Positions 2,502 to 33,963 are shown, counted from the first letter of the stretch. The stretch is 42,732 bases of DNA from Bacteroidota bacterium (GCA_030618105.1 JAUXED010000008.1:1-42732); one strand, 5' to 3'. Notes: generated by a model not told the origin, from the sequence alone. Numbers and translations are program-made.

Positions 2502-5500
2502 ATGTCAAAACTAACAGTATATAGTGCTTCGGCGGGTTCAGGAAAAACTTTTATCCTGGCTGTTGAATATATAAAATTACTTTTCAAATCAAGACATGAG
2601 TACAGGCACATCCTTGCTGTAACATTTACTAATAAAGCTACTGCCGAAATGAAAGCAAGGATAATCCGGGAGTTGAATAACCTTGCCATTAATGAACCAT
2701 CACCGGCAACGGATAGATTAATGAAGGAGATTGATTTGCCACCTGAACAGATTATCAGGGAAGCGGAGGTGATAAGAGACTACCTGCTACATGATTATTC
2801 AAGATTTTCGGTTGGAACAATTGACAATTTTTTTCAACGGATTCTAACTTCTTTTGCCAGGGAAACAGGTTTGCAATTTGGATTTAACCTCGAGCTTGAT
2901 AATAAAAGGATACTTGAACAAGCTGTTGATAACCTGATGGATAATCTGGATGGAAAGTCTAAATTAACTGATTGGCTGATCAGATTTGCGGAAAATAGAG
3001 TTGAAGAAGGCAAGAACTGGAATTTCAGGGATAGCCTGATTGATCTGGGTAAGGAAATTTTTTCAGAAAACTACCAGGGTGTTGATGATAAATATATACA
3101 GGATGGGTCTGACTCTTTTTTGAATAAACTGAATGAATATCAGAATAGCTTGCATAAGATCATCCGCTTATTTGAAAATGCTGTAGAGAAATTTGGAAAT
3201 GAAGGTTTGGACATAATTAGTGAACATGGATTGGAAATAGAAGATTTCAAGCATGGAAGTTCGAGTGTTCCACGTTATTTTTGGTATCTGGCTGAAAGAG
3301 ACAGGAAGAAATTCACTCCTCGTCAACGTGATATAAATGCTATTGATAATCCGGATGGATGGGTAAAAGATACATCTGAAAAAAAGAATGAAATTATAGC
3401 TGCAGTAGATGGTGGTTTAAATGAGGTTTTAAAGCGGGCAATTGAATTCTATAATAAAAATTTCAGGGAATATTTTACAGCAGTAAGTATAAATAATAAT
3501 CTGTTCTCCTTCGGAATTCTTGCAGATATTGAACAGCAAATCAGGGAGATTACACATAATGATAATCTTTTCCTTTTATCTGACGTCCCCGGGTTTCTTA
3601 ATAAGATCATTAATGGGAATGAAGCTCCGTTTATTTATGAAAAGACAGGCAATCACTTTAAATATTTCATGATTGATGAATTTCAGGACACATCAACAAT
3701 CCAGTGGGAAAATTTCAAACCGTTGATAATCAACAGTATTTCAGAGGGATATAAAAATATGGTTGTTGGAGATATAAAGCAGTCAATATATCGTTGGAGA
3801 AACAGTGACTGGAATATTCTTGCTTCCCTTATTGCAGGAAATCAAAATGTTTTTGATGTGGATAAAAGGTCTTTAAAGGAAAACTGGAGGAGCAAACGAA
3901 ATATTGTTGATTTTAATAACAGACTGTTTGAGGCAGCAAAGAAGCTGCTGGATGATCTTTTTGTAAGCGGTCTCCAGGAGAATGGTGAAAGGAATCAGAA
4001 TATAAAAGGTTTGGGTATTGATACCACGATATCCGGTGTTTTTAGTGATCATATCCAGGTACTACCCGGCGGTGAAGATAGAAAAGGGGGATATATTGAA
4101 ATTTCTTTTATTGATCCGGGAAAGGAGAAATGGGAAAGTAAAGTACTGGAAAAATTACCTGTTCTGGTTAATGACTTGCTTGATAAAGGATTGAGACCTG
4201 GTGAAATTGCAATACTTGTCAGGAAAAAGGATCAGGCTGTTAAGGTTATGGAAAGTCTGCTTAGTTATATGAATAATGACAAGGAACATAGGAAAACATA
4301 TAACCTGATTTCAGACGATTCCCTGTTTATCAGGAATTCAGGAGCTGTTAAATTTTTACTGGGAATGCTTCGGTATTTTCTGAATCCTGATGATGACATA
4401 AATAACTCATGGTTATTATATTATCTTAATAAAAAGGATAAACTTACCCGGAAGGATGATGGAGAAAGTGAATTATTTGAGGAAAATGATCGCAGTGCCA
4501 GGCTGATATCCATTTTACCGGTTGAATTTAGAGAAACCCTGTATAATTTAAAGAATCTCCCTTTATTTGAACTGACCGAAAACCTTATCAGAATTTTTAA
4601 GCTGAACACAATAGAAGATGAAATCCCGTTTATTCAGGCTTTTCAGGATCTGGTTATTGAATATTCAAAAACAGAATTTTCAGGGATCATGCAATTTATG
4701 GAATTGTGGGAACAAACAGGAATAGAAAAGAGCATACAGTTATCTGAAAAACTGGATGCGGTACGTGTTATTACTTTACATAAAGCTAAAGGCTTGCAAT
4801 TCAGATCAGTAATAATACCTTTCTGTAATTGGAAAATTGATCATGAAATAAACCCAATGATATGGTGTGAACCAAAAACTGCTCCATTTAATAAGCTTGA
4901 CCGGATTCCGGTAAAGTATGTAAAGAATTTAGCATTAACAGAATTTGATCAGGATTATTTCCGGGAAAAATTTTATACGTTTATTGATAACCTTAATTTG
5001 TTGTATGTTGCTTTTACCAGAGCTATGGACAGCTTATTTGTAATGTGTCCTCCACCACCTGTAAAGTCCGGGGGGCTAACTAATATGGGACACCTGGTAA
5101 GAGAGGCGATCAATTATTGTGCTGAGGCTTCAAATACCGAAATGAAAAATCAGGGAATAGATTTTTCAAAATTCAGGGATACCGAAAAGGAGGTTTTTCA
5201 AATAGGCATTAATGAAATATCAAAAGATCTTCCTGTGAAGATTGGTTTGGGGGAAATGGCAGTAAAAACTTATCCATCCAACAAATACTCTGCGAAACTG
5301 CGATTTAATCTTCAGGCGGATGACTATTTTGAACCTGCTGCAATAGGTGAAAGGTCAAAAGTAAACTATGGAAAGATAATGCATGAAATATTTGAAAATA
5401 TAACAACTTTAAAGGATATAGAATCATCGTTGAAAAAATTGGTTTATGCCGGGAAAATCTCGAATGATGAAACAGCTGCAATCAGGAATAATATTTTCAA

Positions 5501-5780
5501 AAAACTGGAAAATGAACAAGTAAAGGATTGGTTCAGTGATAAATGGAAAGTGAAAGCAGAAGCTGATATTTTATTGAAGGATGGAAAGATAAAACGTCCT
5601 GACAGGGTGATTTATAATAATGAAAAAACAGTGGTTATTGACTATAAGTTCGGAGAGATCAAGGAATCAAAACACCGGTCACAGATAAGGCAGTATATGA
5701 ATTATTTGTCAGAAATGGGATACAAACGTATTGAGGGATATCTGTGGTATGTTGAGATGGATGAAGTTATTAAGGTATAG
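2502..5780 (+). CDS. UvrD/Rep-family helicase-nuclease, AddA/RecB-like
   Basis: Walker A SASAGSGKTF, DEFQDTSTIQW, GDIKQSIYRWR, VRVITLHKAKGLQF, LLYVAFTRAMDSLFV, and C-terminal nuclease motif RPDRVIYNNEKTVVIDYKFGE. Start at MSKLTVYSASAGSGKT. Confidence 0.92.
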   Translation: MSKLTVYSASAGSGKTFILAVEYIKLLFKSRHEYRHILAVTFTNKATAEMKARIIRELNNLAINEPSPATDRLMKEIDLPPEQIIREAEVIRDYLLHDYSRFSVGTIDNFFQRILTSFARETGLQFGFNLELDNKRILEQAVDNLMDNLDGKSKLTDWLIRFAENRVEEGKNWNFRDSLIDLGKEIFSENYQGVDDKYIQDGSDSFLNKLNEYQNSLHKIIRLFENAVEKFGNEGLDIISEHGLEIEDFKHGSSSVPRYFWYLAERDRKKFTPRQRDINAIDNPDGWVKDTSEKKNEIIAAVDGGLNEVLKRAIEFYNKNFREYFTAVSINNNLFSFGILADIEQQIREITHNDNLFLLSDVPGFLNKIINGNEAPFIYEKTGNHFKYFMIDEFQDTSTIQWENFKPLIINSISEGYKNMVVGDIKQSIYRWRNSDWNILASLIAGNQNVFDVDKRSLKENWRSKRNIVDFNNRLFEAAKKLLDDLFVSGLQENGERNQNIKGLGIDTTISGVFSDHIQVLPGGEDRKGGYIEISFIDPGKEKWESKVLEKLPVLVNDLLDKGLRPGEIAILVRKKDQAVKVMESLLSYMNNDKEHRKTYNLISDDSLFIRNSGAVKFLLGMLRYFLNPDDDINNSWLLYYLNKKDKLTRKDDGESELFEENDRSARLISILPVEFRETLYNLKNLPLFELTENLIRIFKLNTIEDEIPFIQAFQDLVIEYSKTEFSGIMQFMELWEQTGIEKSIQLSEKLDAVRVITLHKAKGLQFRSVIIPFCNWKIDHEINPMIWCEPKTAPFNKLDRIPVKYVKNLALTEFDQDYFREKFYTFIDNLNLLYVAFTRAMDSLFVMCPPPPVKSGGLTNMGHLVREAINYCAEASNTEMKNQGIDFSKFRDTEKEVFQIGINEISKDLPVKIGLGEMAVKTYPSNKYSAKLRFNLQADDYFEPAAIGERSKVNYGKIMHEIFENITTLKDIESSLKKLVYAGKISNDETAAIRNNIFKKLENEQVKDWFSDKWKVKAEADILLKDGKIKRPDRVIYNNEKTVVIDYKFGEIKESKHRSQIRQYMNYLSEMGYKRIEGYLWYVEMDEVIKV

Positions 5781-5870
5781 GAGCGAAGAGCAAAGAGCGA
5801 AGAGCAAAGAGGAGAGGGGGCGAAGAGGAGAAAAGGAGAAGAGGAGAAGGTGAGAAGAGGAGAAGAGTTT
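5781..5870 (+). repeat. Purine-rich degenerate repeat (GAGCGAAGAGCAAA / GAGGAGAAAAG)
   Basis: gagcgaagagcaaagagcgaagagcaaagaggagagggggcgaagaggagaaaaggagaagaggagaagg. Confidence 0.85.
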
Positions 5871-5888
5871 TTGAGAAAATGTTTGTAG

Positions 5889-5908
5889 AGACAAGGCACG
5901 CCTTGTCT
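5889..5908. repeat. Palindrome AGACAAGGC-AC-GCCTTGTCT (copy 1)
   Basis: Perfect 9-bp arms around a 2-nt centre; a second copy lies at 22713-22732. Confidence 0.95.
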
Positions 5909-5957
5909 GGAGATTGTTTAATTAGGTAAGCCAAATTAACCTATTTTTAAATTATTT

Positions 5958-6908
5958 ATGAGCAAAAAGGTTTATAGCTGGGGACATGATAGAAGATTTA
6001 ATGCTTACCCGAACTATTTTAGGAAAATATTTGGAGAAAGAGTTCAGAAAGTGAGTATTGATGCCGGTTTTACATGTCCTAACAGGGATGGCTTAATTGC
6101 AAAGGGTGGTTGTACCTATTGTAACAATAATGCTTTTAATCCATCTTATTGCAAGCCTGAAAATACTGTAAGTGAGCAGATTAAGCAGGGTATTGAATTT
6201 CATAAGGTGCGATATCGAAAAGCTACAAAATATCTTGCATACTTTCAGGCTTATTCCAATACATACGCTCCATTGGAGGTCTTAAAGAAGATATACCGGG
6301 AAGCTTTGGAATTTCCCGGAGTGGTTGGATTGGTTATTGGAACCCGTCCTGATTGTGTGGATGATGAAAAACTGGATTATTTGAGTAAACTGGCAGAAAA
6401 ATATTATGTGATCATTGAATATGGCGTTGAATCGGTTTATAATTCAACTCTTCAACGGGTTAACAGGGGACATACGTATGAACAAAGTGTTGAGTCTATT
6501 GAAAAAACTGCCAGGAAAGGTATTCGTGTCGGGGCTCATTTTATTTTTGGTCTGCCGGGCGAGAGCAGGAAACAAATGCTCGATGAAGCTGGTATCATTT
6601 CCGGTCTGCCTTTGAACAATGTAAAATTTCATCAATTGCAAATTGTTAAGGATACAGCTATGTCATTGGAATACAGGGAACATCCTGAACGATTTGAATT
6701 GTTTACGTGGGAAGAATATCTTGATTTTATTGTAAGTTTTGTTGAAAGACTCAATCCGGCATTTGTTGTTGAAAGGATCACCGGTGAAGCACCGCCCGGA
6801 TATCTGACTGGTCCCCGGTGGAATATGAAACGAACAGATCAGATACTTAATTTTTTTGAACAAAAACTGGAAGAAATGGATACATGGCAAGGACGAAGAA
6901 GTATGTAG
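5958..6908 (+). CDS. TIGR01212-family radical SAM protein (YhcC-like)
   Basis: SIDAGFTCPNRDGLIAKGGCTYCNNNAFNPSY (CxnCxxC), GTRPDCVDDEKLDYL, EYGVESVYNSTLQRVNRGHTYEQSVE, FHQLQIVKDTAM. Confidence 0.92.
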   Translation: MSKKVYSWGHDRRFNAYPNYFRKIFGERVQKVSIDAGFTCPNRDGLIAKGGCTYCNNNAFNPSYCKPENTVSEQIKQGIEFHKVRYRKATKYLAYFQAYSNTYAPLEVLKKIYREALEFPGVVGLVIGTRPDCVDDEKLDYLSKLAEKYYVIIEYGVESVYNSTLQRVNRGHTYEQSVESIEKTARKGIRVGAHFIFGLPGESRKQMLDEAGIISGLPLNNVKFHQLQIVKDTAMSLEYREHPERFELFTWEEYLDFIVSFVERLNPAFVVERITGEAPPGYLTGPRWNMKRTDQILNFFEQKLEEMDTWQGRRSM

Positions 6909-10133: not shown

Positions 10134-11882
10134 ATGACTTTTCAGTATACAAATTATAAGGTTGAGGTAAAGAATCTTAAATATATAACAGATAATGGCA
10201 AGGTTTTTCCCAGGACTGCCATTGTTACTTTACTGGATAATAATAACCAATCGGTTGCAGTTGAACTATTCGGATATCTTGAAACGGAGAAGCTGTATAA
10301 GATGATTGATAAAAATGAGGATCTTAACCTGGATCATTGCCTGGTTAGGAATTTCTCTCTTTCGGTTTATCGCAGTGAACGCGGAATTGATAAAAAAGAA
10401 TACGTTAAGCTTAACGGGTTTAGGGCGTCCAATTCATTCTTCGAATCAAAATTTGGTACAGATTTTTCCTTTTCTGAATTCGATGAAGGAGATTTATCTT
10501 TTGAAGGCACTCATTTTGTAAAGGGTGATGTTTCATTCAATTCTACAAAGTTTGGTGACGGAGAGGTGAATTTTTCCAATACTTTATTTCATAATGGTAA
10601 TATTGACTTTACCAATGCAATATTTGGTTCAGGAGATTTTATTTTTAAAAATTCTGTAATTCATGATGGTAAAATAGATTTTCAGTATACTGATTTTGGT
10701 CAGGGATTGGTCTCGTTCGCCAATACTGAATTTTACAGTAATAAGGTCTCTTTTATAAATACGAACTTCAATGATGGTGAGGTAATTTTTAAAGTTGCCC
10801 GGTTCAAAGGTGGAAGTATTGATTTCCATTTTTCAAAGTTTGGAAAGGGAAACATATCTTTTGAGCGCACTGAATTTGGAGACAGTAATGTTGATTTCAG
10901 GACCGTAGAGTTTAATGAAGGAAGAATAAATTTTAACCGTTCTGTTTTTGGTAATGGTAATGTAAGTTTTGAAGGCAGCCAGATTAGGAAAGGAAAGTTT
11001 AGCTTTAAAAAGGCAAAGTTTGGTAAGGGGAATTTGAATTTTGAACTTGCTGAATATGATAATTGTGAACTGACTTTTGAAAATACCGATTTTGATGAGG
11101 GGGATATTTCCTTTCATAATTCCAGGTTTAAAAGGCTGTCAATGAAATCTTGTCATCTCGATCATTATCTTGATTTGAGAGTTGCGAAGTGCGATGTTAT
11201 GGATCTTTCAGATACCATAGTGCGAGATATAATTGATCTTCAGCCATATGATTTTGATATTGATATAAGATTGCTTGATCTTACCGGTATGCGATTGTTG
11301 GGTAGGATCAATATTGACTGGCATAGTAACAGGGTTGAAAAAATGATAAAAGAGCAGAAGGAATCGACCTGTCGCCAGTTAGCCGAGCAGTTCAGAATGT
11401 TGAAAGAGAATTTTTATTTGACAGGTAAGTATAGTGATGAAGACCATTCCTATATCCAGTTTAAGCGGCATGAAGCAAAAGCCGATCTGCATGAGAGTCT
11501 GAAAAAAAATCCTATAAATGCTATATGGCATTATCCTGCAAGAGCTTTTCAATGGCTGGTTTTTGATCAGGTTGGATTATATGCCACTAATCCGCTTAGG
11601 GTATTGTTCAGTATGGTAGTTAGCTATTTATTTTTCTCATTTACTTATGTTGTATTGCAATTTTTCACTACTTCCAGTATAAACTCATCAGTAGGTGATC
11701 CCGATCATTTATCAACTGTACAGGTAGCGCTTTATCACAGCGCTATTACTTTTCTGACAATTGGATATGGAGATTATTATCCCTCTGGTGCAATACGGTG
11801 GGTATCAGGATTAGAAGGATTTGTCGGATTGTTCCTGATGTCTTACTTTACAGTTGCTTTCGTGAGGAAGATACTAAGGTAA
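10134..11882 (+). CDS. Two-TM potassium channel pore fused to an N-terminal 12-residue-repeat solenoid
   Basis: Selectivity filter [13 protein letters not shown] between hydrophobic TM segments ([22 protein letters not shown] and [19 protein letters not shown]). Residues 119-334 are 18 contiguous 12-aa units of form G-x-[VIL]-x-F-x4-F-x2. Confidence 0.88.
10488..11135 (+). repeat. 18 x 36-bp (12-aa) coding repeats in the channel N-terminus
   Basis: [48 protein letters not shown]/... /[12 protein letters not shown], no indels between units. Confidence 0.93.
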
Positions 11883-13515: not shown

Positions 13516-15735
13516 TTGATGGACAACAATGAAGAAAAAAGCTCTGTTCGTGAAGAACAATTCGGGGAAGAGAAAAATAACCCTGAAAATACAGTAAAGA
13601 AGGAAGAAACTTCTGATCAGCTTAATGATTCTCAAATAGGGGAAGATCCTGATGGTGAATTTGTAAATTCTTCTGAAACAACAGTTGAAAAAACTGATTC
13701 GGAAAAAAATGCCACTGATAGTTCCTTACTGGAAAAATCAAATGATGCCTGCCTGCCTGCCGGACAGGCTGGCCTGCCGGCAAGGAAGGGAAACGATTCG
13801 AAACAGATAGAATCTGATGTAGATTCTGAAAAAGCAGAGGAAAAGGAACCAACAAAAGCAAAGGAAGACACTGATGAAATAGCAGAGGGGGAAGCAAAAA
13901 AGGAAGAAGAAGATTCAGTAAAGGCAGAGGAAAAGGAAGCAACAAAGACAGAGGAAAAACCTGATGAAGCAGAGGAAAAGGAGGTTGAGGAAATATTGGT
14001 AAGATCAGTTGATTATTCAACTTTTGGAAAGGAACAATTAGTTAACAGATTGACACTTTTGATTGAAGAGAGACCTGTAAACGAGATCAGAAATGATATT
14101 GACCATATAAAAATTAATTTTTACAAGAAGCACAGAAGTGAACTGGAACAGAAGAAAAAACAATTCCTCAAAGAGGGTGGTGAATTAAAAGATTTTATGA
14201 CCGGGGATGATCCTCTTGAATTAAATTTAAAAAGTCTTCTGCAAAAGTTCAGAAAGAAAAAAACTGAATATATTAAAACCCTTGAGGCTGATAAGCAGGA
14301 GAACCTTAAGGAAAAGTATAAAATTATTGATGAAATAAAAGATCTTGTTAACCGTGAGGAGTCACTTCATAAAACTTTTCAGGAATTCCGTGATCTTCAG
14401 AATCGCTGGAAAGCTGTTGGTATGGTGCCCCAACAAAATCTAAAGGATCTATGGGAAACTTACCACCATCATGGTGAAAAGTTTTATGATTATGTAAAAA
14501 TCAATAAAGAACTGCGAGATCTTGATTTAAAAAAGAATCTGGAAGCGAAGATTAAACTTTGTGAAAAAGCAGAAGAAATAATATCGGAATCCAATATTGT
14601 CACTTCTTATGAGGCACTTCAGAAATATCATGACCTGTGGAGAGAAATAGGTCCTGTTCCACGTGAGAATAAGACAGAATTATGGGAAAGATTCAAGGAA
14701 ATAACTTCAAAGATTAACAAGAAACATCATCAGTATTACCAGGATATTAAAGATCAGCAAAAGAAGAATCTGGAAGACAAAACGAAACTATGTGAACAGG
14801 TAGAAGAAATTAACAAGCAATGTGATATCAAATCTCCCAGAAACTGGGAGAAAACAGCTAATGAGATAAAAAAACTTCAGAAGGTTTGGCGTACAATTGG
14901 TTTTGCTCCGCGTAAACATAATAATAAAATATACAAGAGGTTCAGGGAAGCTTGTGACGCTTTTTTCCTGGCAAAGCGGAATTTTTATACTGAACATAAA
15001 GAGGTTCAGAATAATAACCTTAAATTAAAAGTAGAATTGGCTGTTCAGGCAGAAGATTTGCAGGTTAGTGAAGAATGGAAACAAACAACAGATGCATTGA
15101 TCAAACTACAAAGACAGTGGAAAGAGATAGGTCCGGTTCCAAGAAAAAATTCAGAGAAAATATGGAAACGTTTCAGAGCTGCATGTGATAAGTTTTTTGA
15201 AAGGAAATCAGGATATTATTCCAACAGGGATGAAGTATTTAAAGATAATTTGAAACTGAAAAATGAGCTGATTGAAGAAATTGAGAAATATATACCTATT
15301 GACAATGCAGAAGGGAACTTTATCAAAATCCAGGATTTTCAACATCGCTGGACAGAAATCGGATTTGTGCCTTTCAAACAAAAGGATGAGATTATTAACA
15401 GGTATAAGAGTGTAATTAATAAGCAGTTTGACAAGTTAGATGTTGACGAGTTCAGAAAGAATAAACTTAAATATAAGAATAAGCTGGAGCAATTACGTGA
15501 GAGTCCGAAGGGAAGTATCAAGGCTAAAAACGACAGGGAGAAATTTTACAACAAGATTAAAAAACTGGAAAGCGATGTTGTTCTTTGGGAAAATAATAAA
15601 GGCTTTTTTGCAAAATCAGATAATGCCGAATCTTTGATCCGGGAAGTGGATGAGAAAATTGATCAGGCAAAAGAGAATATCATCCTCCTGGAAGAAAAAA
15701 TAAAAATGATTGATCAGATTGATCTGAATGGATAG
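13516..15735 (+). CDS. DUF349 domain-containing protein with acidic low-complexity N-terminus
   Basis: Repeated W(R/K)EIGPVPR(K/E)N...W(E/K)RF(K/R)xACDxFF modules; N-terminus rich in E/K. Confidence 0.9.
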   Translation: MMDNNEEKSSVREEQFGEEKNNPENTVKKEETSDQLNDSQIGEDPDGEFVNSSETTVEKTDSEKNATDSSLLEKSNDACLPAGQAGLPARKGNDSKQIESDVDSEKAEEKEPTKAKEDTDEIAEGEAKKEEEDSVKAEEKEATKTEEKPDEAEEKEVEEILVRSVDYSTFGKEQLVNRLTLLIEERPVNEIRNDIDHIKINFYKKHRSELEQKKKQFLKEGGELKDFMTGDDPLELNLKSLLQKFRKKKTEYIKTLEADKQENLKEKYKIIDEIKDLVNREESLHKTFQEFRDLQNRWKAVGMVPQQNLKDLWETYHHHGEKFYDYVKINKELRDLDLKKNLEAKIKLCEKAEEIISESNIVTSYEALQKYHDLWREIGPVPRENKTELWERFKEITSKINKKHHQYYQDIKDQQKKNLEDKTKLCEQVEEINKQCDIKSPRNWEKTANEIKKLQKVWRTIGFAPRKHNNKIYKRFREACDAFFLAKRNFYTEHKEVQNNNLKLKVELAVQAEDLQVSEEWKQTTDALIKLQRQWKEIGPVPRKNSEKIWKRFRAACDKFFERKSGYYSNRDEVFKDNLKLKNELIEEIEKYIPIDNAEGNFIKIQDFQHRWTEIGFVPFKQKDEIINRYKSVINKQFDKLDVDEFRKNKLKYKNKLEQLRESPKGSIKAKNDREKFYNKIKKLESDVVLWENNKGFFAKSDNAESLIREVDEKIDQAKENIILLEEKIKMIDQIDLNG
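13747..13785 (+). repeat. GC-rich palindromic (REP-like) element in frame within the DUF349 gene (ACLPAGQAGLPAR)
   Basis: TGCCGG-A-CAGGC-TG-GCCTG-CCGGCA near-perfect hairpin (13758-13782), far GC-richer than its surroundings. Confidence 0.8.
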
Positions 15736-26865: not shown

Positions 26866-27243
26866 ATGAGAAAAGTAGTTAGTACTAAAAAGGCTCCCGG
26901 CGCAATTGGGCCTTACAGCCAGGCAGTTGAAGTAAATGGCACATTATATATCTCAGGGCAGGTACCACTTAATCCTGATACCGGGGAACTTGCCGGTGAT
27001 ACTATAACTGAACAGACTGAACGGGTTTTAAAGAATATCCGTTTTATAGTAAATGCTGCCGGATATTCAATGAAAGAGATAGTAAAAACAACCTGTATGC
27101 TTCAGGACATGAATGATTTTGCAGAAATGAACAAAGCTTATGAAAAATTCTTCCCTGATGATCCTCCTGCAAGGGCTGCATATGAGGTTGCCAGGCTACC
27201 CCTGAATGTTAAAATTGAGATTGAAGCCATTGCAGCAAGGTAG
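26866..27243 (+). CDS. RidA family protein (enamine/imine deaminase)
   Basis: TKKAPGAIGPYSQAVEVNGTLYISGQVPLNPDTGEL...PPARAAYEVARLPLNVKIEIEAIA. Confidence 0.95.
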   Translation: MRKVVSTKKAPGAIGPYSQAVEVNGTLYISGQVPLNPDTGELAGDTITEQTERVLKNIRFIVNAAGYSMKEIVKTTCMLQDMNDFAEMNKAYEKFFPDDPPARAAYEVARLPLNVKIEIEAIAAR

Positions 27244-27267: not shown

Positions 27268-30200
27268 TTACTTTTTACCGGTCTTTTCTGATTCGATTTC
27301 CTTTAGCTTTCTCACGGCTGTAAACTTAGCTGCAGCAATTGTTTCCCTGTTAGCCTTTTCTGTTATTCTACCACGGGTCAGATCTTCAACAGCAATATAT
27401 CCGTTCATCAAAAGAAGCTGTATAACCATGTTGTTAATAATGGTGTCTTTGCTATATCCTTTTGCAACATAAACTTTTTCGCAATCGAGATAGAACTGGT
27501 TTGCAAATTCCTGGTTATTAGGTAACCACATTAATTGTTCATAAGTTTCACTAAACCCGTTTAACTCAATATTAATATTTGGGGTTATCAGTAACGGACT
27601 GAATTTATGGTTCTTTGGTAAAGGATAGAAGCCTGCTAATCCTGACAGGTCTATTTTAGTTTTCATATCATCCACTCTAACCAGCCGGGCTTTTCGCATT
27701 TCGTCAAGTTGATACAGGTAGAAATTATACCGCCAAATTTCCATATTATGTTTATGGTGCCTGAACAGATGCTTATAGCATTCAACAATTAAACTCTTAA
27801 CATGATTTTTCTTTTTGTCAAGGTCAGGGTGCATAATTCTCACTTCGCGTATCAAAGTTCTTACATCTGCTGCAGCCTTTTGAGGACCGGTTATTTCTTT
27901 CCCTTTTTTGCCAAGATCAGTAGACAGGATGCCAAGCTGGATATTTTTCCCTTTTCCTTTTCCGTCCGGTTTTCCTTTCAGTATTTCTATCAGGTGTTTC
28001 TTGGATTCACTTTCTCCCGGCTCAGCAATGAACGGATTTCCGGCCGGAGTACTGGCAAGTGTCTTAAACAGTGTGCCAAAGAAATCCCTGTCGATAGGGA
28101 ACGAAATCTTACTATCACCATCTGTGCATTTTGCATCTATAATGAACCTGTTCTCAATTATATTAAACCTGACTTTATTGATCAGGAATTCCTTGTTATT
28201 CCGGTTAAAATATTTTTTTATAAATATCTTGTTAACAATATCTTCAATGTCAATTTTATCCATCATTTTGTATGATGAGGATAGGTAGAATGCCCCGGTA
28301 TATTCATCTTTTTCCCATGAAAGAATATCATCCAGATAGTTTCCATGCTGGTCAATTATTTCAACAATGTTCCTGTCACCGGTATACCTGAGCAAAGTGC
28401 GCTGAATATGCGGATTGTCTGAGCTCGTTGCTTTTTCTTTCCTTTCTCCATGTGAATCACGATAGAGAAAAAAGTTTTCAGGGTTGGCATATCGTTTCAA
28501 ACCAGCTTCTTCTTTGGCAAAATTGTAGGCTGTTAGCATGATATCAATTTTAAAAGGCATATTGATATCACATAAACCACTGATAGTGCTTCGTGAGTTC
28601 AGATCATTCACATTACTATCTGCACTGCTTTCGAAAAGCGAATTATAATATTTAATAAAATCAGGATCAAAATCCGTTACGCGCGAGAAATCACCCGTTT
28701 CCGTACCTATCCCATACAGGTTACCCTCTTCATCAGGGAACAGATGAAACATATCCCCGGCAATCATCTTAATTGAGCGGATGCCTGGCAGATCTTTTTT
28801 CATCCATTTCAACATCATAGCGGCAAGCATTTCAGATTTGCCAACGCCGCTGTCACCACTTACCTGGATCACAAATATACTACCGTCATCTTCTTCCACG
28901 GCAAACAAAGAACCATGAAAAGGTATGCCGCCTAGTTCCTTCACTTTTTCATTCACCATTGTTAACCTTGGTTTCTTGATGTTGCCAAAATAATCAGCAG
29001 ATTTTTTTAAAGGTGTAACGATGGTTTTTATGTTCCCGTTTGGACCTTTCAGATCGAAATAACCAATTTGAGGGAATGATATAACCTTTTCAGGAGCTCC
29101 GAGAAGGAGGATTATGTCAGGAATAAACTTCTGAACCTCATTAAGCTTAACAAATCCGGGCCCTATCAGGCGGTAATTATCTGTCAGATATTTCAGAAAA
29201 GATTTTTGAATTATATGGAGTTCCTTCACCAAACCGATATTTACGATTTTGCATCTGTAATCTTCTTCATCAAGATTTTGTGCAAAAAGAGCAAGCCTTT
29301 TGGTAAAAAATGACGATAAAGGACTGACCTGCATTTTTTTAATAAATTCATTACGGTTGGGATTATCAGCAATTTTTTTGTTCACGGACGGATCCTCAAT
29401 CCTGTCAACCTTATAGTAGGGATATTCCCTTTTCTTGGCATCAGTTGCGATACGTGTATGTGTTTGTACCGGTTGTTCCCAGGCAATTACTCCACAACGC
29501 GACATCAATTGTGCTATCCATGATAACGATCCTTTGTTCCACTTCTCAAGTGTGTTGCTTTTTATGGAAAAATCTCTGTGAAGGACAATCCCATGTTGTA
29601 CCATTTCATTAATACTGGAATTCTGTTGCATGAATTCAGTTTCAACCAGTCTGATTAGTATATGATTATATTTTTTATAATACTCGTTGTTTTTGGTCAT
29701 GTTTGCCAGGCTGATAAAAAACAGAACCATCTCCCTGACTTCATCATGCAGTTGCTCAGGCATGATCTTCACATTTCTTTGTATGAATATTTCATCCATC
29801 AATGTCGTTATCTCAGCCGGAATAAGTCGAGATATCAGATCTTCCTTAATTAGTTTTATATCTTCCGGTTCTGTATTGTCAAAATGGCCTGTGAACCGGC
29901 TTATTTTTTCAATCACCCTGGTTTCAAAGCAACTATCCTTCTGCAGCAGGTAAAGAAATAATATCTTATTAACCGTTGTATGATGCGAATTGTGTATCTG
30001 TTTACTGATCGTTTGTTGGATAACACCGGGATATTTTCTTATCATTTCATCCCGGTTAAGGTCGTGCAATCTATTATCGATTTTCTCGATATACAGGTTC
30101 ATGAAAATATCCGGGTTAAGGTCATTCACAGATAATCCAACAATCTCGTTAAATTTTAAAGCTGTTGAATTGGCAAGTTGTTCAAATGTGGGTTCAATAG

Positions 30201-33200
30201 CTTGCTGTTCAAAAGGGAGGTTAAAATGTAGCAACAATTCCTGGATGTATTTTCTCAGTATTCTGTTATAACCTTCCAGTTTAGCCAGGTCACCGGAAAT
30301 ATCATTCTCATTTACTTTAATTGATAGTATTTTGGTTTTTGCATCAGAGAACAGAATTTTTTCCAGTTCTATCAGTATCTCCTGCATAATAGTTAGTTCA
30401 TCCGGGTTATCAAGTATATACCGGTCTGGCTGGAATTCCAGCTTGCTTTTAATATACTTTAGCAGGGTTGTTTTTCCATATTTGGCAATTACCGTATTGA
30501 TATCAAGCTTTTTAAGGTGTGGAATATTTCGATAAATCTGAGGAAGAAGGTTTTCATATATTTTTGTAAATGCTTTGGATGAGATGAATTCCGTCAGATT
30601 TCTGCATTTTCCTACATTTTCATAAAACTCCAGAACTGCATTCTTCGAATCACCAATTGAATTTATTGAGACCCCGCATTCTTTTGGGAAAGCATGATAA
30701 AGGGTTTTTATATCACTGATTTTTAACGAATTGTTGATCTTTTTATCAAGATCACGGATGATGTAGAAATCTTCAAGGATATTCCTGATCAGTTCGCTAT
30801 CATTACGAATACTGAATATTTCATTCAGAATATCTTCAGTCCGCTTTGTTTTATTAGAAGGATTATTCTTTGCTTCATAGAAAATTGACCAGTACTTCAG
30901 AAAGATCCTCAGTGCATTTTCAAATTCTTTGATATAAATATCATAACTGTCTGCTGTACCTTCCAGGTAATCACCCAGAGAGAATCGCAAGAATCCTGTC
31001 TGGTAGGGGATAAGAGCAATACCACGCTGGTCAGCCAGTTTCTTTGTGAATTTTTCAAGATCCTGGTACGAGAAAAAGTTTTTCAGATGAAGATTGAACA
31101 GGTATGACCCGTCTGAGTCGAGTATGCCAATTTGGTTTTCTTCGTTTTCAGATAAAACTGATAACGCCTTTTCTCTGGCCAGATCAAGTCTTTTATTAGC
31201 TTCCTGCCGGAAGATCTTATTCACTCTGAATTCATTCAACTCCTGTACGAGGTGTTCTTTGTAATAGCTGAAAAACGGAACACCTTTGTATTTGAAATCA
31301 TCGGGTAGTTCCAGCACGTCGAGTTTATCGAGGGAGACAAGCTCTTCAAGAAGGAACAGGTGAAGCGGACTTCCTTCGAATAATGACGGATTTCGTGTAC
31401 GGTCTTTGTGCCCGTTTTCACGGACATTGATATTATCACGGATCTCCGTCATGATATACTTTTTCAGCTTATCTTTTATCTTATACCGTGAAGCGTCTTT
31501 TGGAAGACTTTCGTCCATCCTGTCTTTTATCTTTTTTGCCAGTTGGGCGGTTTCCAGAATATTTATCAGAATGAACAGGGAGTTTGTGTTCCCTTTTTCA
31601 ACTCCGAATTGTTCCCTGGCATAATCGATCACATCTTTTCTGACGGGTGTAGCTATCAGTGAGCCGAGACGATCTCCTGTTGCACCAAGATTTTTTGTTG
31701 TAGAGAGAGATGATACAATACTTATCCTGGCAAATGAACCAATATTATTCATGATATACCTTGAAATAGTCCGCCATTTCGGTTCTTCAGGATCCTCAAT
31801 TTTTACAGCATCGTTATATGCTTCGTCCAAAAATAAAGTAAGTTTACTGTTATTAAGAAACTTAAGGAATTTTATCAGGTGAATGTTATTAAAATCGGTG
31901 AATCCTGATGGGTTGGACGGATCGTTGATAACAAGGGTTGAGTTTTCGCAGAACCGGTCCCACAAATTTCCTGTTTCGTCGAATAACTGAAAAGTGCTTT
32001 TTATCCGTTCAAGCTTTATGAGCAATCGCTCCCAGTCAACCCGACCCTCTTCGGTGAGTTCAATTTCAATATCAAAAGGATTCAGGTCAAAACGATCGGG
32101 CGGAAACAGATCTTTATACTCCCAGGCAGCTTCCTGGTTGAAAAAAATGAACGGGTTTGGTCTGCGGTTCTTATAAAACAACAGGTCTCGTATAATCATT
32201 TGCACATCATCTGAAATAGATGTTTTTTTCAGGTTTCCCAGGTTGCTTATGAATTCGTTAATGATCTGTTTACCGGCTGGATCTTTTTTATTGTACTTCT
32301 CCTCAATTCCAAGATCAATCAGCAGGTTTCTGAATCGCCCCTGGTTATCTGCACTGTTTTCGACCTTTGTGAGGTATTCTTTATACTTTTCAAGAAAAAG
32401 GTTTATTCCAAAGTTTTTATGGAAATGGTTATGGATTGTTCTCTGGTAATTATCAGGAACGATATCCAGGATAGTTCTGCACCTTTTTATTATTGAATCC
32501 TTTACAGGTTTAAGAGGGCGTTTGAGCAGGTATTCTCCGTATGTTCTTATCTGGTTACGTCCGCCACCTTCAACAACTGTTGCTATATGCAGACTTTTGT
32601 TCTCAGAATAAAAATATGCAAGGGTTCTCTCTTCAAATTCACTTATCATCTCCCGGTTGATGATTTTATGATTTTCAGTGTCCCTTGTGTTTTCTATCAG
32701 GTTGATATATGCTCCGAATTTTGAAAGGATGTACTTATCCTTAATTACCTGGCGGGCAAATTCATCAAATTTGTAAAGAATAATATCCTGATCGGGATCA
32801 TCAGGATTGGCTAACTGTTCCTCTTTCAGTTGCCTGAGTTCCTTGTCATATTCAACTATTTTTTCTTCGATCTTTTGTCTGAAATATTTCAAATTCCTGG
32901 AGTTAACCTTATCATGGATAAGGCGGAGATTCAACTGGCTGTTGGCAAGGGCACCCAGTTTCTTGGTATGAACCTTATTAAGTGTATTTATAATACCATT
33001 ATGCAGGCAAAAGATCAGGGATGTATTAGTTGACCGGGACTCAGGTGAATCATCAATAAATACCATTCTTGTCAGTAAAGGGAACCACCGGAAGGCATTG
33101 AACGGGTTCTTTCTCATATTCCTCATCTTGATAGCGAAAATACTGGTGCCGTCTTCATAAATCTCATTATAAAGCTTTTCTGCTGTTGAAAATTCGAGAA

Positions 33201-33963
33201 CCCTAACGCTGTTTTTGCTGAATACTTCTTTTGTAAGCAGATCAATGGTTGTTTCGGCAGTGCCCGAAACAATGGTACGTATGAAACCGTTGAGTCCTTT
33301 GAAATTTACCGTCGATTCGGTGCGGGCCAGAAAATTGTCCTTTTCTGCACTTGTGGTATAATGGGTCGACTGGTTGATCATCTGATCCATTACATCAAGC
33401 ATATAATTCCACTGTGCTTCTTCAATATCACCACTTACTCCGATCAGATCACGAAATTTCCGGAGTTCCCTGACCTTGTCACCCAGCAATATCCTGTAAA
33501 GAAAGTCGATAGTTACCTTTGTAATGGGAGGTGTACCAAGTGAATAATCATGAGTTTTAAGAATATTTCTGAACTGGATTTTTGTTTTATCGTCAACTTG
33601 TTCAGTATCAATGAGTTCGTTGAGCATCTTATAAAAAACCTGCCTTCTTGCACTGTACTCAAATGCTTTTGAGTTTTCATGGGGCATCAGCATCAGGGAA
33701 ACATCTATGTAGCCGGGAATAGCCTCCTTTAGTTCCAGCAGGTATTTCCCGATCTCAGCCTGCTGCCTTGCAGGATCATCAGGCTCTTCATAACATAACC
33801 TCACAAAATTCGTAAGGCTTTCAAAGACCCGGTCGGGAAGAAAGTTCTCTGCTCTTTCACCAAGTTGAGTATAAAGATCAACAAACCTTCTGGCTTCCTG
33901 ATTGAGTGTGGCTTTTGGTTCTCCGGATAATTGCATAACTAAGTTGTTTTTTGAAAAAGGCAA
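27268..33963 (-). CDS. 2231-aa multidomain protein: fold-type-I PLP aminotransferase-like domain plus PEPCK/HprK-like P-loop kinase domain
   Basis: VINDPSNPSGF, LFLDEAYND, SLSTTKNLGATGDRLGS (K757) and FLRFSLG; second domain VIQVSGDSGVGKSEMLAAMM (K1709), IAGDMFHLF. The start may be M10 at 33936, since a -7-like box lies only 8 bp from 33963. Confidence 0.75.
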   Translation of the reverse strand: MPFSKNNLVMQLSGEPKATLNQEARRFVDLYTQLGERAENFLPDRVFESLTNFVRLCYEEPDDPARQQAEIGKYLLELKEAIPGYIDVSLMLMPHENSKAFEYSARRQVFYKMLNELIDTEQVDDKTKIQFRNILKTHDYSLGTPPITKVTIDFLYRILLGDKVRELRKFRDLIGVSGDIEEAQWNYMLDVMDQMINQSTHYTTSAEKDNFLARTESTVNFKGLNGFIRTIVSGTAETTIDLLTKEVFSKNSVRVLEFSTAEKLYNEIYEDGTSIFAIKMRNMRKNPFNAFRWFPLLTRMVFIDDSPESRSTNTSLIFCLHNGIINTLNKVHTKKLGALANSQLNLRLIHDKVNSRNLKYFRQKIEEKIVEYDKELRQLKEEQLANPDDPDQDIILYKFDEFARQVIKDKYILSKFGAYINLIENTRDTENHKIINREMISEFEERTLAYFYSENKSLHIATVVEGGGRNQIRTYGEYLLKRPLKPVKDSIIKRCRTILDIVPDNYQRTIHNHFHKNFGINLFLEKYKEYLTKVENSADNQGRFRNLLIDLGIEEKYNKKDPAGKQIINEFISNLGNLKKTSISDDVQMIIRDLLFYKNRRPNPFIFFNQEAAWEYKDLFPPDRFDLNPFDIEIELTEEGRVDWERLLIKLERIKSTFQLFDETGNLWDRFCENSTLVINDPSNPSGFTDFNNIHLIKFLKFLNNSKLTLFLDEAYNDAVKIEDPEEPKWRTISRYIMNNIGSFARISIVSSLSTTKNLGATGDRLGSLIATPVRKDVIDYAREQFGVEKGNTNSLFILINILETAQLAKKIKDRMDESLPKDASRYKIKDKLKKYIMTEIRDNINVRENGHKDRTRNPSLFEGSPLHLFLLEELVSLDKLDVLELPDDFKYKGVPFFSYYKEHLVQELNEFRVNKIFRQEANKRLDLAREKALSVLSENEENQIGILDSDGSYLFNLHLKNFFSYQDLEKFTKKLADQRGIALIPYQTGFLRFSLGDYLEGTADSYDIYIKEFENALRIFLKYWSIFYEAKNNPSNKTKRTEDILNEIFSIRNDSELIRNILEDFYIIRDLDKKINNSLKISDIKTLYHAFPKECGVSINSIGDSKNAVLEFYENVGKCRNLTEFISSKAFTKIYENLLPQIYRNIPHLKKLDINTVIAKYGKTTLLKYIKSKLEFQPDRYILDNPDELTIMQEILIELEKILFSDAKTKILSIKVNENDISGDLAKLEGYNRILRKYIQELLLHFNLPFEQQAIEPTFEQLANSTALKFNEIVGLSVNDLNPDIFMNLYIEKIDNRLHDLNRDEMIRKYPGVIQQTISKQIHNSHHTTVNKILFLYLLQKDSCFETRVIEKISRFTGHFDNTEPEDIKLIKEDLISRLIPAEITTLMDEIFIQRNVKIMPEQLHDEVREMVLFFISLANMTKNNEYYKKYNHILIRLVETEFMQQNSSINEMVQHGIVLHRDFSIKSNTLEKWNKGSLSWIAQLMSRCGVIAWEQPVQTHTRIATDAKKREYPYYKVDRIEDPSVNKKIADNPNRNEFIKKMQVSPLSSFFTKRLALFAQNLDEEDYRCKIVNIGLVKELHIIQKSFLKYLTDNYRLIGPGFVKLNEVQKFIPDIILLLGAPEKVISFPQIGYFDLKGPNGNIKTIVTPLKKSADYFGNIKKPRLTMVNEKVKELGGIPFHGSLFAVEEDDGSIFVIQVSGDSGVGKSEMLAAMMLKWMKKDLPGIRSIKMIAGDMFHLFPDEEGNLYGIGTETGDFSRVTDFDPDFIKYYNSLFESSADSNVNDLNSRSTISGLCDINMPFKIDIMLTAYNFAKEEAGLKRYANPENFFLYRDSHGERKEKATSSDNPHIQRTLLRYTGDRNIVEIIDQHGNYLDDILSWEKDEYTGAFYLSSSYKMMDKIDIEDIVNKIFIKKYFNRNNKEFLINKVRFNIIENRFIIDAKCTDGDSKISFPIDRDFFGTLFKTLASTPAGNPFIAEPGESESKKHLIEILKGKPDGKGKGKNIQLGILSTDLGKKGKEITGPQKAAADVRTLIREVRIMHPDLDKKKNHVKSLIVECYKHLFRHHKHNMEIWRYNFYLYQLDEMRKARLVRVDDMKTKIDLSGLAGFYPLPKNHKFSPLLITPNINIELNGFSETYEQLMWLPNNQEFANQFYLDCEKVYVAKGYSKDTIINNMVIQLLLMNGYIAVEDLTRGRITEKANRETIAAAKFTAVRKLKEIESEKTGKK

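Follow-up and report, generated by a model that had tools for sequence, protein, structure and literature searches.

Does the unusually long minus-strand reading frame in this Bacteroidota contig encode one protein, and what could a chain with both an aminotransferase-like and a kinase-like region do? The window (the whole 42,732-nt stretch analyzed here) represents ordinary Bacteroidales chromosome with dnaA, lptD, yidC, pyrG, recF and ridA. The first-pass annotation had described a single contiguous minus-strand ORF at 27268-33963, which is open for 2231 codons when read from a TTG at 33963. The frame is indeed intact, and the first Met in every homolog corresponds to an ATG nine codons downstream of this TTG. 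Since the homologs all start at this position, we set the gene to 27268-33936 (minus strand), starting with the ATG at 33936 and encoding a protein of 2222 aa, hereafter the giant. All residue numbers count from this Met and are nine lower than those used previously.

A gene of this length from a MAG might reflect an assembly or frame artefact that fuses separate genes, and an assembly error had been named as one way in which the original proposal could fail. However, intact ORFs of the same length are present in many independent assemblies, including those of isolates, the N-terminal part is free of indels, and dN/dS values are low: the whole gene gives 0.05–0.12 over six pairs, and no segment exceeds about 0.16. 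Based on the intact orthologs and these ratios we ruled out an assembly join, the probability of which we consider negligible; the gene is under strong purifying selection.

Full-length orthologs of nearly equal length were found in Bacteroidales, Ignavibacteriota, Calditrichota and KSB1 MAGs, and isolates carrying the giant belong to Alistipes, Marinilabilia, Anaerophaga and Ancylomarina. Among the 60 relatives searched, 25 gave matches, some of which are fragments or the related kinase domain only, while the intact full-length copies are 56–98% identical. A genome-contig scan yielded 112 relatives, of which 80, mostly full-length, were kept; its Bacteroidales comprise Rikenellaceae with Alistipes, Marinilabiliaceae, Odoribacter and Ancylomarina. 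The distribution of the giant is patchy: 19 of 246 genomes match at the level of the order, a few of these by weak aminotransferase matches alone, and 3 of 396 match in a sample of the phylum. One relative (G015) carries a broken remnant of the gene. Phyla are intermixed in the tree, with Calditrichota at two places, which is compatible with, and not proof of, transfer between phyla. Carriage as plasmid or phage cargo was rejected, as no copies of the giant were found there and the single plasmid match is a stand-alone PEPCK-like relative. For the conservation analysis, 89 full-length ORFs were reduced to 53 at 88% identity, and the invariance of residues was scored over these 53 sequences.

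Residues 449-1045 (30802..32592, minus strand) are predicted from sequence and model to adopt a class-I (fold-type I) aminotransferase fold with inserts and to carry the residues of a PLP site, which bears out the aminotransferase-like domain of the first-pass annotation. The Pfam family Aminotran_1_2 matches above cut-off (E=5.7e-10) and is detected in 13 of 13 members examined, in each case over the PLP core, and PDB profile searches with this domain returned ACC synthase as well as tyrosine and alanine aminotransferases. An AlphaFold model of residues 1–1185 (mean pLDDT 82.7, pTM 0.83) matched class-I aminotransferases in Foldseek with probability 1.00 and E-values down to 2.8e-7. These matches cover many specificities, with ACC synthases being best, and their overall TM-scores are low, possibly because of the long inserts and the extra domains in the model. 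All motifs quoted originally were located in the translated protein, namely NDPSNPSG (671-678), LDEAY (703-707), STTK748, R756 and RFSLG (R984). N671, D704, Y707, K748, R756 and R984 are the same in all 53 homologs, so that the NPxNPTG-type Asn, the D-x-x-Y pair, the S-x-x-K motif with the predicted Schiff-base Lys (K748, formerly K757; codon 31693..31695, minus strand) and the Arg following it are all kept. R984 (in G-x-x-R-F-S) is labeled a putative C-terminal carboxylate-binding Arg from its motif alone; the hhalign alignment cannot be relied on in this region. The giant thus has the fold and the PLP-site residues in common with class-I aminotransferases and ACC synthase, but its domain comprises ~600 residues with inserts, lies behind 448 orphan residues, and can be aligned to these enzymes at the sequence level over the PLP core only.

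The second catalytic region, residues 1441-2040 (27817..29616, minus strand), had been described as a PEPCK/HprK-like kinase. Of these two names the former holds and the latter does not, as both sequence and model indicate a domain that is specifically of the PEPCK type. All of the 50 best solved structures matched in Foldseek by an AlphaFold model of residues 1050–2222 (pLDDT 78.7, pTM 0.71) are PEPCKs, with E-values down to 1.1e-5, and none of these 50 has the HprK fold. The giant was modeled as two halves, each containing one of the two active sites. Alignment by hhalign to eight canonical Bacteroidales PEPCKs gave E=1.3e-5 at ~25% identity and covers the Y-x-G-x-x-K-K motif, the His, the P-loop and the acidic region. 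The similarity falls under the Pfam and NCBIfam cut-offs; of 13 members, one matches PEPCK_ATP, with E=0.1. A bridge is provided by a stand-alone PEPCK-like family of ~580 aa, which aligns end-to-end with residues 1490–2040: this family matches the giant with 3.8e-22 and canonical PEPCK with 9.1e-8 in hhalign, and the chain of the two matches supports the assignment of the domain to the PEPCK type. Hence, similarities to both aminotransferases and PEPCK, the lack of which had been named as a possible refutation, are present.

HprK and PEPCK belong to one fold superfamily, and Hpr_kinase_C reaches 0.058 in 2 of 13 members, which could point to a protein-modifying kinase of the HprK type joined to an aminotransferase. 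We regard this as very unlikely, because the best Foldseek matches are all PEPCKs and the match to canonical PEPCK extends beyond the P-loop to the Lys-Lys and His motifs that precede it; the HprK identity was therefore dropped.

Y1649, K1654, K1655, H1674, K1700, S1701, D1728 and R1782 are invariant in 53/53 homologs. Among the PEPCK features kept are the Lys-Lys pair, the metal-binding His, the P-loop GxxGxGK[ST] and the Arg of N-x-R; the P-loop reads GDSGVGKSE (residues 1694-1702; 28831..28857, minus strand) and contains K1700, the former K1709. We take these sites to correspond to K212/K213, H232, K254/T255, D268/D269 and R333 of Escherichia coli PEPCK, based on the alignments and on general background on PEPCK. 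The DD metal pair, for which the register was taken via the stand-alone family, is G1727-D1728 in 53/53, and the Gly in place of the first Asp may change the handling of nucleotide and metal. In comparison with ATP- and GTP-PEPCK (PF01293 and PF00821), the giant shares the fold, the Tyr, Lys-Lys, His, P-loop, the second Asp and the N-x-R Arg, but it remains under the family cut-offs, has Gly for the first Asp of the pair and carries the domain inside a 2222-aa chain. The PPi-type PEPCK of ~1100 aa is likewise an unusual PEPCK, and no solved PPi-PEPCK appeared among the PDB matches of the giant in sequence-profile searches or among its 50 best folds. Whereas the PPi-type enzyme (EC 4.1.1.38) is reported to be unrelated to ATP/GTP-PEPCK (PMC8100219), the domain of the giant is related to them.

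More than 1000 residues of the giant are not explained by known domains, in agreement with the earlier description of large stretches without a nameable domain. These correspond to an N-terminal domain (residues 1-448; 32593..33936) with mixed alpha/beta structure and long helices in the model, a mostly helical middle region (1046-1440; 29617..30801), which is the least conserved part, and a helical C-terminal domain (2041-2222; 27271..27816), all on the minus strand. Profile searches of the PDB returned no credible match for any of the three, and Pfam gave only weak, probably spurious matches for residues 1–448. The segments resemble neither each other nor the catalytic domains, and internal repeats were not found in them. 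The N-terminal domain comprises exactly 448 residues with zero indels in 21/21 aligned representatives.

The giant gene is a lone transcription unit. Consistent neighbors, suggested as a check in the first-pass annotation, are mostly absent and no conserved operon surrounds the gene. Only ridA (Endoribonuclease L-PSP / imine deaminase family; 26866..27243, plus strand) recurs, lying tail-to-tail with the giant in the genus of the window and in a distinct clade with ~55% identity (L070, L075, L098, L099), and could be a possible, unproven partner. In the host and its relatives, an AspAT-like aminotransferase gene is directly followed by canonical PEPCK in a two-gene operon. The two are adjacent in 15 of 16 relatives with this aminotransferase, PEPCK not being found in the 16th, and in a KSB1 MAG the operon lies immediately beside the giant gene. 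As the order of the operon is that of the domains in the giant, the same two activities may exist both as operon and as fusion. In contrast to the giant, the operon encodes separate proteins with canonical sequences, which by similarity are not the direct parents of its domains. The operon is present in 13 of 22 genomes with the giant and in 3 of 38 without it, a difference that is confounded by common ancestry and thus only suggestive. Canonical ATP-PEPCK is retained in nearly all giant-bearing relatives including the host, which excludes the giant as its replacement.

What, then, might this one intact gene with two catalytic folds encode? The reading we prefer, with slightly less than even confidence, is a bifunctional enzyme that joins transamination to PEPCK chemistry, most probably aspartate ⇌ oxaloacetate ⇌ phosphoenolpyruvate. 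From the folds and the invariant catalytic residues we infer that both sites are active. The aminotransferase domain, with PLP on K748, would interconvert an amino acid and a 2-oxo acid, and the PEPCK-type domain would carry out the nucleotide-dependent decarboxylation and phosphorylation of this oxo acid, or the reverse, so that a PLP reaction would be coupled to ATP-dependent phosphoryl transfer. In the likeliest chemistry, aspartate would be converted to oxaloacetate and this to phosphoenolpyruvate and CO2, all reversibly, with oxaloacetate being passed on within one molecule; the domains at 1-448, 1046-1440 and 2041-2222 may serve in assembly, channeling or allosteric control. Because the host has canonical PEPCK, the giant would represent a specialized or regulated side path rather than the bulk PEPCK. 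More tentatively, it may be a widespread and uncharacterized single-chain enzyme that interconverts an amino acid, probably aspartate, and a PEP-like phospho-enol product at coupled sites, with an altered metal/phosphoryl-donor site and three new channeling or gating domains. A literature search for aminotransferase–PEPCK fusions, with most subscription journals outside its reach, found no description of such a protein. The PEP–oxaloacetate–aspartate node has a central place in the metabolism of anaerobic and gut Bacteroidota, and a protein that fuses both of its steps and occurs in several phyla would, if the preferred reading is correct, constitute a new kind of metabolic channeling, with orphan domains that are new folds or regulators.

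Several observations speak against the aspartate–oxaloacetate–PEP route: the giant hosts keep PEPCK, the DD pair is G1727-D1728, the PEPCK scores are under cut-off, and no operon names a pathway. Its main rival keeps the two-step scheme but changes the acid: both domains would be active, and the aminotransferase would make or use some other 2-oxo or hydroxy acid, on which the PEPCK-type domain would act as a kinase or decarboxylating kinase in specialized or secondary metabolism. We consider this possible, albeit doubtful. The lost Asp and the low identity to canonical PEPCK would fit such a change of substrate, as would the canonical PEPCK and AspAT-like aminotransferase already available to the host, the many specificities among the structural matches and the vicinity of the imine/enamine deaminase family gene ridA in two clades. 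On the other hand, the residues with which PEPCK holds PEP/OAA and metal (Lys-Lys, His, P-loop and the N-x-R Arg) are all retained, no biosynthetic cluster surrounds the giant, and the operon of aminotransferase and true PEPCK points to oxaloacetate. A regulatory or scaffold protein that reuses both folds for ligand sensing, with catalysis weak or absent, seems improbable: the size of the orphan domains, their near lack of indels and the canonical enzymes alongside the giant could be understood in this way, but all 53 homologs, from several phyla, share the Schiff-base Lys, the P-loop Lys (the two residues whose conservation had been proposed as a check) and the remaining catalytic residues, unlike typical pseudoenzymes.

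The stand-alone PEPCK-like proteins, exemplified by L022:4788-6548 and the L. fermentum plasmid protein AYP99509.1 (annotated as PEPCK), align over the entire PEPCK-type module of the giant with E-values of ~1e-22 to 1e-32. They differ from it in that they have neither aminotransferase nor orphan domains, keep the DD pair and occur in genomes without canonical PEPCK. Genomes with both the stand-alone gene and the giant were not seen, which is not significant at these counts. ATP-PEPCK is missing in 5 of 41 relatives that are at least 90% complete. Three of these five have GTP-PEPCK, and the other two, without either enzyme (G013 and G054), both carry the stand-alone gene; its association with the absence of PEPCK in these 41 relatives has a Fisher p of 0.004, with relatedness ignored. 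Two further genomes (G515 and G559) likewise have the stand-alone gene and no known PEPCK. The stand-alone relatives thus resemble genuine PEP–OAA enzymes and probably form an additional PEPCK family that takes over where the known PEPCKs are missing, which favors PEPCK function for this branch. PEP carboxylase is encoded right beside the stand-alone gene in both G054 and G559.

The stand-alone relatives of the PEPCK-type domain of the giant protein (~580 aa; L022:4788-6548(-), L021:4287-6071(+), L023:4794-6524(-), L024:4155-5888(+) and L120:1197-2906(+)), for which Pfam holds no model, are a candidate further PEPCK family. Their gene is found in the well-assembled relatives that carry neither an ATP- nor a GTP-dependent PEPCK, and in two genomes a PEP carboxylase gene adjoins it.

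Canonical ATP-PEPCK is encoded, in the window's genome and in relatives, directly after an AspAT-like aminotransferase gene in a two-gene operon (L141:3296-4510 and 4612-6261; L142:5871-7142 and 4216-5874). In a KSB1 locus, the giant gene lies directly beside this operon (L103:10278-13093).

In the related genome G015, the giant gene survives only as a broken remnant, located where a contig ends (L026, G015:C7:64624-66996); it carries one internal stop and lacks ~500 residues, reflecting either gene loss or a break in the assembly. The giant protein of L072 (JAADHC010000042.1), from a MAG titled Chlorobiota, is identical to that of G010, a genome of the window's own family; the title is probably a misassignment.

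Elsewhere in the window, 10134-11882(+) encodes a 582-aa protein with a C-terminal match to an ion-channel domain, Ion_trans_2, confined to the last ~85 residues, the preceding ~490 having no Pfam match. A 739-aa protein with five DUF349 repeats is encoded at 13516-15735(+).
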